A DNA stretch of 64,000 nt from an archaeon (GTDB lineage Archaea > Thermoproteota > Nitrososphaeria > Nitrososphaerales > Gagatemarchaeaceae). Within the stretch, counting starts at the first letter, position 1; every line of letters begins with the position of its first letter. Below, piece after piece: positions 1-3,270 of the stretch. Below the pieces are notes generated by a model. It ran no database searches and was not told the DNA's origin. It worked only from the letters and a program-made list of their open reading frames with translations. Position numbers and translations under genes: made by a program. The stretch lies in NCBI GenBank assembly GCA_021827865.1, contig JAKAUC010000013.1, positions 372,001-436,000 of the forward strand, given 5' to 3'.

Positions 1-395
1 ATGCCCAGCATCGATGAGATGCCCTCGACCGACTTTGGGAAGGTCGCGCCTGACCTGAACTTGAAGGTGAAAGCGCCCCCTCCTGAGGCGGGGGTGGGGT
101 CCAGGGGGACGATGAGCCGTCCGGACCTGAGCCCCTGCAGCATCTGGCCCTTGACTTCTCCGATCGCCTTCAGGACGTCATCCCGCTCCCTCTTGAGGGC
201 TGCGGCCCTGTCCTGGTGTCCGGGGTCGGACCAGTCGAGGCCGATCAGGGCGTAGAAAGCCTGGTCCTTCTCGTTCCTCTTCGGGTCCTGTTTGATCTCC
301 TGCGACAGCGTCTCCAGCTCGCTGTCGATGGTCCGGAGCCTCTTCTGCTCCTCCAACAGCCTTCCGGCTGCTACCTCCAGTTCTGTGAGGTTCAT
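1..395 (-). CDS. Coiled-coil protein downstream of tubulin homologue (3' end outside window)
   Basis: The reading frame starts with ATG at 395, five bases after the stop of the tubulin-like gene, and is still open at base 1, so only about 131 N-terminal residues are visible. Residues 1-90 are rich in Glu, Leu, Lys and Arg with heptad-like spacing and look like two helices of a coiled coil, broken by a short Trp/Asp/Pro segment. The remainder is a Gly/Pro-containing stretch followed by beta-like sequence. I do not recognise a family. The tight spacing implies co-transcription with the tubulin homologue, so it is a candidate partner or filament-associated protein. That role is inference from context only. 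Confidence 0.7.
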   Translation of the reverse strand, partial: MNLTELEVAAGRLLEEQKRLRTIDSELETLSQEIKQDPKRNEKDQAFYALIGLDWSDPGHQDRAAALKRERDDVLKAIGEVKGQMLQGLRSGRLIVPLDPTPASGGGAFTFKFRSGATFPKSVEGISSMLG

Positions 396-400
396 TTCCT

Positions 401-1765
401 CTACCCCAAGTGGCTTGAGACTTCGATTACCGCCTTCTTGAACTCCTCGTGCGTCAGGTTCTTGTTCTGATACTCGTCCTTGTAAGAGTCCCAGGCATCC
501 TCTGCCTCCGTGACTATGGGGAGGAGCTTCTTCCCGACCCCCTTGACGTTGAGCAGGACGAGGGCCGAGGCGGGCTCCGCGGGCATGGTGGGGATCTTGA
601 TGAATATCACGCGCTTGTCTTGGATGCCGTACTTCTCGTTGAGTATCTTCTTGAAGAACTCCCTCTCCTCGGCCCCCACGCTCCCGGCGGCCTTGATCAG
701 GACGCAGGCGGAGTCAGTCTTCCCCTTCTCAACCTCCCCCTCCTGTTCGAGGTCGAAGAGGACCCCGTCGTTCCCCTCGTCCATGGCGGCCTCGATGGAC
801 TTTACGTCAGAGCCCCCCTTGGGGGCCAGGGGTATGAGCCATGGGACCACGAACTTCGGCTTGCTCGCCGCCAGCCAGGTCCTGTAGTTGGACATGTCCC
901 ACTCCGTCTCCCGGATGAACGAGTCCATGAACTCGGCGATCACGTGAGCGGCCAGCAGGTTCTTGTTCCTGTAGTCGTGCCAGCCGACGCGTATCTGCTT
1001 CGGGAGTTCGTCCACGATTGAAGACCTCGCGTCGAGCATGCCCTTCAGCCTGTCGGCCTGGAAACGCAGCTCCTTGTTGTCCATCAGCACTGGAGCGTCT
1101 GAATACTTGATCTGGTAGGCGAGGTTGAGAACTATGCTGATGTGAGCCGGGCCGTAGATTACCGGGTCCCACCCGAACTCTGGGAGAACGCCGAATGTAG
1201 CTATCGTCGCCTGGCCGAGGGTGTTGCTCCCCTTCACGTAGGCCATGAACTCCGAAGAGAAGGAGCCGCCTGTCCCTCCGCCCATGCTGAACGGGACTAT
1301 GAACCCCCTCACCGGCTCGGGGGAGATCGCCTGTATCCTCGACGCGATGTCCTGCTTCCCTACGATCTCGTTCCTGAACCTGCTCCTCCCTTCGGCCCAG
1401 TTCCTCGCCGCCCCGCCCAGGCCGTAGACGGCGTGCTTGTCCTTCATGGCGAAGAGCTGCGGATAGGATTGCAGGATTAGGTTGGCCGAGCGCGGGTCGA
1501 GGTCCACGAGCAGCGCCCTCGGCACCAGGGGGGTCTCCCCCCTGCGGAGGGAGGCGCCGAACCTGAGTATCGTACTCCCGTACCGCCGCAGGACCTCCAG
1601 CTGCTGCTTCTCCCCCTTCAAGGTCGGGGCGGTGGGGTCAGCGCCCACGTCGATCAGAACCCAGCGGTATGCTTCAGCGCCGATTCCAACCCCGGCGTGG
1701 CCCATGCAGGCCATGATCACCGGATTGGGAGCGAGCGGCGCTTGATTCGCGATCCTGAACGCCAA
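401..1765 (-). CDS. Tubulin/FtsZ superfamily protein, eukaryotic-tubulin-like
   Basis: Numbering is from the upstream ATG at 1780 (459 residues). A T1-like loop G-H-A-G-V-G-I-G lies at 27-34, close to the tubulin GQAGVQIG. The segment around 87-100 (VPRALLVDLDPRSAN) resembles tubulin PRAVFVDLEP. The glycine-rich T4 signature SMGGGTGGS is at 165-173. Residues 293-320 align by eye with the tubulin T7/H8 region NVDLTEF...VPYPRIHFPLATYAP. The length is that of alpha/beta tubulin (about 450) rather than FtsZ (about 350-400). At the T7 catalytic-acid position the residue is Asn298 (E-W-D-M-S-N). A TATA-like box at 1787-1796 is too close to ATG 1780 and fits a leaderless TTG at 1765, which I chose; a GTG further in would also keep T1. 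The downstream coiled-coil gene and the divergent vWA gene suggest a cytoskeletal or membrane-remodelling module. Family assignment is confident; function is inferred. Confidence 0.88.
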   Translation of the reverse strand: MAFRIANQAPLAPNPVIMACMGHAGVGIGAEAYRWVLIDVGADPTAPTLKGEKQQLEVLRRYGSTILRFGASLRRGETPLVPRALLVDLDPRSANLILQSYPQLFAMKDKHAVYGLGGAARNWAEGRSRFRNEIVGKQDIASRIQAISPEPVRGFIVPFSMGGGTGGSFSSEFMAYVKGSNTLGQATIATFGVLPEFGWDPVIYGPAHISIVLNLAYQIKYSDAPVLMDNKELRFQADRLKGMLDARSSIVDELPKQIRVGWHDYRNKNLLAAHVIAEFMDSFIRETEWDMSNYRTWLAASKPKFVVPWLIPLAPKGGSDVKSIEAAMDEGNDGVLFDLEQEGEVEKGKTDSACVLIKAAGSVGAEEREFFKKILNEKYGIQDKRVIFIKIPTMPAEPASALVLLNVKGVGKKLLPIVTEAEDAWDSYKDEYQNKNLTHEEFKKAVIEVSSHLG

Positions 1766-1786
1766 CGATTCACCTCCCATCCCATC

Positions 1787-1823: not shown

Positions 1824-2399
1824 TTGAGCTACGACGAGTCCAACGCGACCGACCTGCTCTTCATCATAGACGGCTCGAGGAGCATGGGAGGGAAGATGCA
1901 CTCCTCAGGGATGAGCAAGATGAAGATGGTCAAGACAGGGCTGTTCGACTACGTCGCGGAGCACTGGCCGGTCTCCTATTTCCCCTGGCCAACGAGGATG
2001 GGGGTGTCGTTCTACAGGCTGCTGGGGACCCCCGGCTCCACGCAGATTGAGGTGGTCGTCCCTCTGAACCCTGCTCCGGCCTCGCTCGAGCTGTACCGCT
2101 TGGAAGAGATGCAGTGCAAAGGGGGGAGCCCCCTGGTGGACGCGGTCAGGTACAGCATCGAGAACGTGTCGGAATCCATCAGGGGAAAGAAGGTCATCAA
2201 GCTGATCAGCGACGGCGGGAACGACCGGGAACCGGTCAAGACCATAGCCGAGTACCTGAAGGGCTCCCCGGTCGGGTTGGACGTGATAGAGCTCTCCAAC
2301 GAGGCTTCGAAGGAGCTCAGGGACATCGCCACCCTCACCGGAGGGTCGTACACGAGGCCCCACAATCTGGCGGACTTTGCGAAGACCATCAGAAGCTAA
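1824..2399 (+). CDS. von Willebrand factor A domain protein
   Basis: A 191-residue protein that is essentially one vWA domain. The metal-ion-dependent adhesion site is visible as D-G-S-R-S-M near residue 16 (DxSxS), a Gly-Gly-Ser-Pro segment near 98 in the place of the usual Thr loop, and S-D-G-G-N-D near 132. No signal peptide or membrane segment is seen, so it is probably cytosolic. Such domains mediate metal-dependent protein binding. The TTG start at 1824 follows a TATA box shared with the divergent tubulin homologue. A tubulin-like family associated with vWA proteins has been described in bacteria and archaea, so a joint role is plausible. Confidence 0.85.
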   Translation: MSYDESNATDLLFIIDGSRSMGGKMHSSGMSKMKMVKTGLFDYVAEHWPVSYFPWPTRMGVSFYRLLGTPGSTQIEVVVPLNPAPASLELYRLEEMQCKGGSPLVDAVRYSIENVSESIRGKKVIKLISDGGNDREPVKTIAEYLKGSPVGLDVIELSNEASKELRDIATLTGGSYTRPHNLADFAKTIRS

Positions 2400-2668: not shown

Positions 2669-2887
2669 CTACTTTAGCTTCCTTGCTTCTCTTTCGGTCT
2701 CTCTGAGGATCAACACGTCGGCCAGCCGGATCGGCCCCTTCACGTTCCTAGTCAGGATGCGCCCCTTCTCCTTCCCTTCCAGAATCTTGACTCTGACCTG
2801 GGTAATCTCGCCCGCCACCCCGGTCCGTCCCACGATCTGGACTATTTCGGCGGGGGTGAGTGTCTCTACTTCTTTCCTGCTGCTCAT
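2669..2887 (-). CDS. rps28e: Small ribosomal subunit protein eS28
   Basis: A 72-residue basic protein with the eS28 pattern: V-G-R-T-G-V-A-G-E near residues 18-26 and the C-terminal L-R-E-T-E-R-E-A-R. It binds the small subunit near the mRNA exit channel. Its ATG overlaps the rpl7ae stop by four bases, so the two are translationally coupled, as is common in archaea. Confidence 0.95.
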
Positions 2888-3270
2888 GCGGCCTTCTTCA
2901 GCCTCGAAAGCTCCTGCGTGACCTGCTCCAGTATCTGTGAGCCTTCGCCGGCCTCCAGGACCGCCGCGGCGGCTGTGGAGACGTCTATGCCGATGGCCGG
3001 GCCGATCTGGTCCTTGGAAGGCACGAAGACATAGGGGATCTTCCTCTCGTCGCAGAGGATGGGCAGGTGGGCGACCACCTCAGGCGGGGTGACGTCCTCG
3101 GCTATCACCACAAGCTTGGCCAGCCCCCTCTCGATGGCCTTTGTCGACTCGTTGGTCCCCTTGCGGACCTTGCCGGTCCTGGACGCCTGCCTCAGGACCT
3201 CGTAGGCTGCCTCGGAGACCTCCTTTGGTGTCTCGAACTTGATGTAGTAAGGCTTCTTGTCTGGGGTCAT
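2884..3270 (-). CDS. rpl7ae: Ribosomal protein L7Ae (K-turn binding)
   Basis: A 128-residue L7Ae family protein with the K-turn RNA-binding core [13 protein letters not shown] and the following A-E-D-V-T-P-P-E segment. In archaea it is a ribosomal protein and also a subunit of box C/D and H/ACA RNPs and of RNase P. The RNase P protein Rnp1 and Cbf5 are encoded elsewhere in this window. It is the first gene of a two-gene operon with rps28e and has a TATA box about 35-40 bases upstream. Confidence 0.95.

Follow-up and report, generated by a model that had tools for sequence, protein, structure and literature searches.

Artubulins, tubulin homologues of archaea, were named in 2012 by Yutin and Koonin (PMC3349469), and in the accessible parts of the literature from 2012 to 2026 their function has been left open. 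The functional clue given there is a neighbouring gene for the ESCRT-III protein Snf7, which was the basis of the published 'cell division' proposal (PMC3349469), while their phylogenetic position has, according to the accessible text of another account, never been fully resolved (PMC13394414). Here we consider a 64,000-nucleotide stretch (hereafter the window) of contig JAKAUC010000013.1, from a member of the Gagatemarchaeaceae (assembly GCA_021827865.1), one end of which carries a gene that is almost certainly an artubulin. The protein itself is not a new kind, having been in print since 2012. What is new is the company that its gene keeps: a downstream gene, which we call PART, is the constant neighbour, whereas the Snf7 clue is local. 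For the window's family, the main text of the paper devoted to it (PMC10640624), searched by term, contains neither tubulin nor FtsZ.

A first-pass annotation made from the sequence alone had singled out the segments GHAGVGIG (T1), PRALLVDLDP and GGGTG, judged the protein nearer to tubulin than to FtsZ or CetZ and named the artubulins as possible relatives; all of this holds. The three segments are present in the open reading frame (ORF) and, with loop names assigned by eye, the protein reads T1 GHAGVGIGAE, PRALLVDLDP, T3 GGAARNWAEG, T4 GGGTG, T5 PEFGWDP and T7/H8 RETEWDMSNYRTW. The Pfam family PF00091 (Tubulin) covers residues 25–238 (E 3.5e-10, 40.9 bits, curated cut-off 33) and is the only Pfam match, and NCBIfam gave none at E ≤ 1. 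The best match in the Protein Data Bank (PDB) is Heimdall (Asgard) AtubB (E 2.1e-16 with phmmer, 9.7e-22 with a 17-sequence profile), and the best 60 of 172 matches by phmmer and profile are tubulins throughout. Likewise, the best AlphaFold2 model (pLDDT 78.5, pTM 0.84) has OdinTubulin 7eve as its top Foldseek match (E 9e-21; TM 0.74 for the query and 0.80 for the target), and the best 50 of 1610 matches are tubulin or tubulin-complex entries; neither FtsZ nor CetZ occurs among these best 60 and best 50. Both the GTPase-domain sequence and the predicted fold resemble those of tubulins (Asgard, Odin, eukaryotic, BtubB) more than those of FtsZ or CetZ. An assignment to FtsZ or CetZ was rejected on these grounds, a tubulin-superfamily match being present and the best profile match being a tubulin. 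An assignment to Tubulin_2/FtsZl1, which the annotation had proposed to check, was likewise rejected: PF13809 does not match the window protein, and 3 of 25 artubulin family members match it at E 0.0086 or weaker. Sequence similarity to eukaryotic and Asgard tubulins spans about the first 240 residues rather than the full length, and residues 240–459 alone gave no PDB match at E ≤ 10. The likeness of the C-terminal half to tubulin would therefore rest on the predicted fold, and the annotation's statement that the T7/H8 region is alignable with alpha-tubulin stands by that fold and not by sequence.

Aligned over about 440 residues, the window artubulin shares 52–54% identity with loci named Nitrosotalea, Nitrosotenuis and Nitrosarchaeum (51–57% for partial loci). 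This nearly end-to-end identity, together with loci that have the published Snf7 and dCMP deaminase neighbours, indicates orthology to the published artubulins: loci L105–L111 carry the Snf7 neighbour and L105 also the deaminase, as in the accessible description of the published locus (PMC3349469). Identity to 16 relatives in an alignment (A1) is 54–88% and the nearest relatives reach 94%, which places the ORF far beyond chance. The estimated contamination of the assembly (7.47%) was ruled out as the source of the locus, the same gene order being found in related metagenome-assembled genomes (MAGs). A tblastn search of the window's genome and 60 related ones was positive for artubulin in 23 of the 61; in the class sample of 400 genomes it was positive in 88, once doubtfully, so that the rarity which the annotation had expected does not apply inside this class. 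At the level of the phylum, a profile matched 23 of 398 genomes, all within the same order. A named scan confirmed 85 places, of which the best 80 were used; these include Ca. Nitrosotalea, Ca. Nitrosotenuis, Nitrosarchaeum, Nitrosopumilus and MAGs titled Thaumarchaeota or Nitrososphaerota. In what follows f1 (the window's family), f2, f3, f8, f10 and f13 are family codes internal to our sample, for which we have inferred the GTDB or NCBI family names. To judge from MAG titles and genome traits, f1 is probably group I.1c (Gagatemarchaeaceae); f10, as matching coordinates show, holds the published kinds of artubulin host, Ca. Nitrosotalea devanaterra (G098, L077) and Ca. Nitrosotenuis chungbukensis (G145, L086).

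The genes around 81 loci (L003, which is the window's own, and L041–L120) were laid out by simple ORF calling and clustering. The largest cluster after artubulin, at 71 loci, consists of a protein of mostly 178–188 amino acids (aa) encoded directly downstream, namely PART. With a profile run against six-frame translations, PART is next downstream in all 75 loci that have at least 600 nt on that side, many of which belong to near-identical relatives and so do not count as 75 independent cases; the other six loci are too short downstream, and two of these still show PART. Across the class sample, it is found in 87 of the 88 artubulin-positive genomes, and the match in the remaining one (G344) covers 102 residues at 34% identity, includes a stop and is probably not an artubulin. 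Quick trees of artubulin (42 rows) and PART (56 rows) leave several forks open; they share their main groups and indicate that PART evolves faster. We regard PART as very probably a functional partner of artubulin.

PART is apparently an undescribed gene of no known family. Its predicted model is confident (pLDDT 90.6, pTM 0.73), with two long helices (3–50 and 60–91) forming a coiled-coil hairpin, followed by a small alpha/beta domain of the order E E H E E E H. Foldseek found no PDB entry at E ≤ 0.001 (707 at E ≤ 10), and the PART profile gave weak PDB matches, at E 0.0013 or worse and mostly over the coiled-coil part. No Pfam family matched more than 7 of 32 members, the best E being 0.0019 among 25 of the 48 families obtained, and no NCBIfam family fits. 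The names Spc24 and ZapB were set aside as chance coiled-coil matches. Nor is PART the published Snf7, which at those loci adjoins artubulin on the upstream side. No account of PART was found in the accessible literature on artubulins, figures and supplements apart; according to the accessible text of PMC9871819, coiled coils are frequent in the gene neighbourhoods of archaeal tubulin-like proteins, and PART may be among the genes meant.

In the window's family, for which 37 genomes were sampled (21 artubulin-positive and 16 negative), the pair is part of a four-gene cassette comprising a vWA gene, artubulin, PART and a gene for a 314-aa protein. The vWA gene is present in 19 of the 21 carriers and 1 of the 16 non-carriers (Fisher 2.1e-7), the 314-aa gene in 20 and none, respectively (Fisher 1.3e-9), both values being uncorrected for shared descent. 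The carriers without vWA (G030, G036) show partial artubulin only, and the lone non-carrier with vWA (G010, 53% complete) has a fragment at a contig edge. Away from the ndk and rps28e borders, two genomes (G016, G032) keep all four genes together and one (G034) keeps three, its 314-aa gene lying on another contig but still co-occurring. The 314-aa gene was found in 0 of 5 artubulin genomes of f3, f10 and f13, and no vWA cluster was seen beside artubulin outside the window's family in the 81 loci. At L041–L055, gltX flanks the cassette on one side in every one of the 15 loci, and in 14 of them the other side has ndk or IF2; the names ndk, rps28e, L7Ae, gltX and idsA were given by eye. Seven of the 16 artubulin-less genomes were opened at ndk. 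In six of them (G002, G003, G005, G025, G033, G035) ndk and rps28e are adjacent, 123–1100 nt apart, with no cassette gene, and in G009 the rps28e side is absent up to the contig end. The cassette genes have a GC content of 60–63% compared with 57–64% for their neighbours (86–89% versus 75–85% at third positions), and there is no sign of the cassette being freshly foreign.

The GTP-binding motifs are strongly kept. In a set of 80 translated artubulins, some of them partial, every sequence has T3 and T5, 79 have PRALL[VI]DLDP, 78 T4, 77 T1 and 79 the T7 motif TEWD; of the 79 sequences readable there, 78 have TEWDMSN and one TEWDMSS, and the whole stretch RETEWDMSNYRTW is identical in 78. The catalytic acid of T7 we take to be Glu254 in alpha-tubulin and Asp212 in FtsZ. 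In a by-eye alignment to the tubulin letters, the alpha-Glu254 position is Asn in 78 and Ser in one of the 79; in the window protein, anchored on the Asp, it is Asn298, and sliding the alignment by one gives Tyr299. In the accessible text of PMC13394414, alpha Glu254 completes the GTPase site, while beta Lys254 leaves GTP unhydrolysed. Because Asn (or Tyr) sits at the catalytic position, T7 suggests that an artubulin homopolymer would turn over slowly.

Taken together, the predicted tubulin fold, the conserved GTP motifs, the orthology, the constant downstream gene and the joint loss lead us to favour, tentatively and with slightly more doubt than conviction, a single two-gene system of artubulin and PART that would serve as an accessory GTP-dependent cytoskeleton with slow-turnover filaments. 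The function so assigned is read from sequence. Artubulin would bind GTP and polymerise head to tail, giving protofilaments of the tubulin type; PART, presumably encoded on the same transcript, would bind the filament or its subunit through the coiled-coil hairpin or the alpha/beta domain, and thereby set how filaments assemble, bundle or attach. Two adaptors may have been added in the window's family, the vWA protein with its metal site and the 314-aa protein. Slow hydrolysis, for which we consider the case nearly as strong as that against it, would yield long-lived filaments acting as a scaffold and not as a treadmilling ring. The system would be accessory, since close relatives do without the cassette while another PF00091 protein stays; shape, surface attachment or internal organisation would be examples of its role, rather than a division machine. 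Slightly less probable is a separate cytoskeleton of archaea with artubulin and PART at its core, in which a slow-GTP tubulin filament is bound by an obligate coiled-coil PART, much like a microtubule-associated protein, and in which lineage modules (vWA with the 314-aa protein, or Snf7) dock. If true, this would be a tubulin-plus-dedicated-partner system, neither FtsZ/CetZ nor microtubule.

Several points weigh against the favoured two-gene cytoskeleton. PART is the more widely kept gene of the pair: 41 of the 400 class genomes (6 in f2, 31 in f8 and 4 others) have it without artubulin, which indicates that it has a role or history of its own. The six in f2 are full-length forms; those in f8 are mostly matched over the C-terminal two thirds, in open frames of 95–165 aa. 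The remaining four belong to f10 and f13, where three genomes have a broken gene (remnants in G141 and G161 of f10, a broken copy in G048 of f13), and in the fourth (G289, f13) PART is intact and the contig ends about where artubulin would begin. The alignment of T7 to tubulin and FtsZ was made by eye, and other acids in this loop (E291, E293, D295) could serve. The five artubulin models span pLDDT 78.5 to 48.1, three averaging 48–50, and values below 50 fall on residues 27–30 and 290–301, the very loops from which polymerisation and slow hydrolysis are argued. To call the other PF00091 proteins FtsZ is an assumption, as the window genome's alone was opened and matched PF00091 alone. Finally, no experimentally shown artubulin filament was found in the accessible literature on artubulins.

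Some features would also suit a protein that does not polymerise and acts as a GTP switch controlling PART, the vWA protein and the 314-aa protein. The missing catalytic acid at the alpha-Glu254 position, the low confidence of the T1 and T7 faces in the model, the 9–13 extra residues between S7 and H9 in Nitrosopumilaceae-type and G038 sequences, and the existence of PART without artubulin all agree with this explanation. However, the T7/H8 stretch in tubulins faces the next subunit, and its near-invariance goes beyond what one would expect of a monomeric switch; moreover, the fold matches polymerising tubulins over nearly the whole length. We consider the switch unlikely, albeit the strongest of the alternatives to a filament-forming artubulin with PART.

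Less probable again is the proposal made at naming, that artubulin acts in cell division with ESCRT-III (Snf7/CdvB). In its favour, seven loci (L105–L111, titled Nitrosarchaeum, Nitrosopumilus or Nitrosopumilaceae; Pfam E 7.8e-8 for the Snf7 of L105) have such a gene immediately before artubulin on the upstream side, as published (PMC3349469), and the window genome has two Snf7 Pfam matches elsewhere, one over the cut-off. A profile of those Snf7 proteins, run over the 81 loci with flanks of up to 10 kb, often shorter, adds no locus to the seven, although it recovers both Snf7 genes of the window genome at E 1e-36 or better (one stretch each). The window's locus is not among the seven, no Snf7 gene being found in the 12 kb around its artubulin. 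In the accessible text of PMC3835317, Ca. N. uzonensis likewise has no Snf7/CdvB gene near its artubulin. Close relatives are without an artubulin match, for example G005, which is a single contig rated 100% complete, and, of the 37 family genomes, 36 encode a PF00091 protein distinct from artubulin (all 21 carriers and 15 of the 16 non-carriers); both points argue for an accessory artubulin–PART system over a division machine.

A conflict or defence module using a tubulin is very improbable. Although the cassette genes come and go as a unit, with a clean empty site, and the 314-aa protein faintly resembles PaaX_M (Cas2-like; E 0.017 to 0.11, below the cut-off in each of the three homologues scanned), PADLOC returned nothing better than E 0.019. 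Most defence genes are not conserved class-wide in the manner of artubulin, whose tree agrees with that of PART in the main groups. Least probable of all is a TubZ/PhuZ-like filament for DNA or plasmid segregation: its patchy presence and the different chromosomal sites of the cassette across genomes would fit, but the gene is chromosomal and inside a translation gene cluster, 72,556 plasmid records gave no match at E ≤ 1e-3, none was confirmed in viral contigs (a single-protein query reaching close relatives only), and neither artubulin nor PART has a PHROG match at E ≤ 1. A viral or plasmid origin of artubulin finds no support in the same viral contigs, within that reach, or plasmid records.

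The coordinates of the locus are collected in Table 1. The annotation had given a length of about 454–459 residues, and 459 aa stands when counted from the ATG, a start that is not general among the loci compared. At the position of the window's TTG, L057 and L058 have ATG and GTG. In archaea, the TATA box usually precedes the transcript start by about 26 nt. Since all 16 loci of the window's group (L003, L041–L055) share the TTG and it is preceded at about that distance by the box TATAAAAAA, the start is probably TTG 1765, with a protein of 454 aa, rather than ATG 1780; the conservation of both elements was read by eye from the upstream stretches.

Table 1. Features of the artubulin locus (window positions unless prefixed by L003)
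Feature	Position	Strand	Remarks
PART, 5' part	3..395	−	Cut by window edge; start 5 nt past artubulin stop codon
Artubulin	401..1780	−	459 aa from first ATG; ORF listing and PF00091
Probable artubulin start codon, TTG	1763..1765	−	TTG in 16/16 loci of window's group
TATA-box-like TATAAAAAA	1787..1795	−	About 26 nt before TTG; exact in 14/16 window-group loci
vWA gene	1824..2399	+	191 aa; DxSxS (DGSRS) metal-site motif; divergent from artubulin; PF00092 E 1.6e-6
rps28e and L7Ae (right cassette border)	2669..3270	−	Names by eye
ndk (left cassette border)	L003:6061-6555		Outside window; name by eye
314-aa cassette gene	L003:6872-7816		Downstream of PART
PART, complete	L003:7859-8395		178 aa

Some further observations concern these genes and their relatives. 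The IF2 (aIF5B) gene just outside the window (L003:2684-6034, G000:C20) encodes 1116 aa compared with about 595 aa in most relatives, owing to an intein near residues 32–543 (Intein_splicing E 2.3e-17; LAGLIDADG_3 E 8.5e-12), by eye at the P-loop; the long form (1116–1120 aa) also occurs in L043, L044 and L049. The window genome's only other PF00091 protein (L001:958-2043, G000:C13), which we call FtsZ-like, matches over the second half of the GTPase domain only; its T4 reads GGATGSG and the usual T7 acid motif was not seen in it, so that FtsZ may here be of an unusual form. PARTs away from artubulin lie at L131–L136 (f2) and at L137–L145 and L150 (f8), the neighbourhoods of L135–L141 being covered in part; the full-length PART of f2 adjoins a radical-SAM gene (Pfam E 4e-15, L131), and the short ones of f8 adjoin a gene for an EMG1/NEP1 methyltransferase (L141) or for a DSP-type phosphatase (L144). 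Two artubulin contigs are titled as bacteria (L056, 'bacterium'; L082, 'Gammaproteobacteria bacterium BBSC-SA02'), probably wrongly, since L056 fits a contig of G016, from the window's genus, and L082 shares neighbour genes with L084–L086. One genome of f3 (G038; 97% complete, 1% contamination) has two artubulin–PART operons (L023, L027), with artubulins 85% and PARTs 62% identical, which could allow a heteropolymer. Two artubulins, 93% identical, also occur in a MAG titled Nitrosopumilus (L107, L108), where strain mixing may be the cause, the matching genome (G388) having 5% contamination. The extra residues between S7 and H9 occupy columns 323–334 of A1, by position the place of the tubulin M-loop, and are missing from the artubulins of the window's family and f13.

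These findings shift the question from ESCRT-III-aided division to a concrete two-protein problem, artubulin and PART, in which PART gives a handle on artubulin function. Artubulins have moreover been added from lineages outside the Nitrosopumilaceae-type group, which should inform the dispute over the root of eukaryotic tubulin.

How the locus compares with described systems can be stated as far as the accessible parts of the respective papers go. The artubulins of Nitrosarchaeum and Ca. Nitrosotenuis (PMC3349469, PMC3835317) are alike in their near end-to-end orthology, in having tubulins as nearest solved relatives and in the presence of an FtsZ-type gene as well; the window locus differs in having divergent vWA and 314-aa genes in place of a Snf7 neighbour, its protein has about 12 residues fewer from S7 to H9, and it comes from a different lineage, of soil and acid-mine origin according to MAG titles. 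Asgard AtubA/AtubB and OdinTubulin (PMC13394414) provide the best sequence (AtubB) and fold (OdinTubulin) matches and share the GTP motifs. Unlike them, artubulin matches by sequence over about the first 240 residues only, has no catalytic acid at the place of alpha-Glu254, is tied to PART and is single in most carrier genomes instead of forming an A/B pair. Finally, FtsZl1/Tubulin_2 (Makarova and Koonin 2010, PMC2875224) is likewise a tubulin-superfamily protein encoded beside a vWA gene in addition to a separate FtsZ. The window protein, however, has no PF13809 match and differs from most FtsZl1 proteins, which carry a long coiled coil and a helical C-terminal domain of their own; no kinase or OmpA gene was noticed among those of its neighbours that were scanned, and the link between vWA and artubulin is confined to the window's family.
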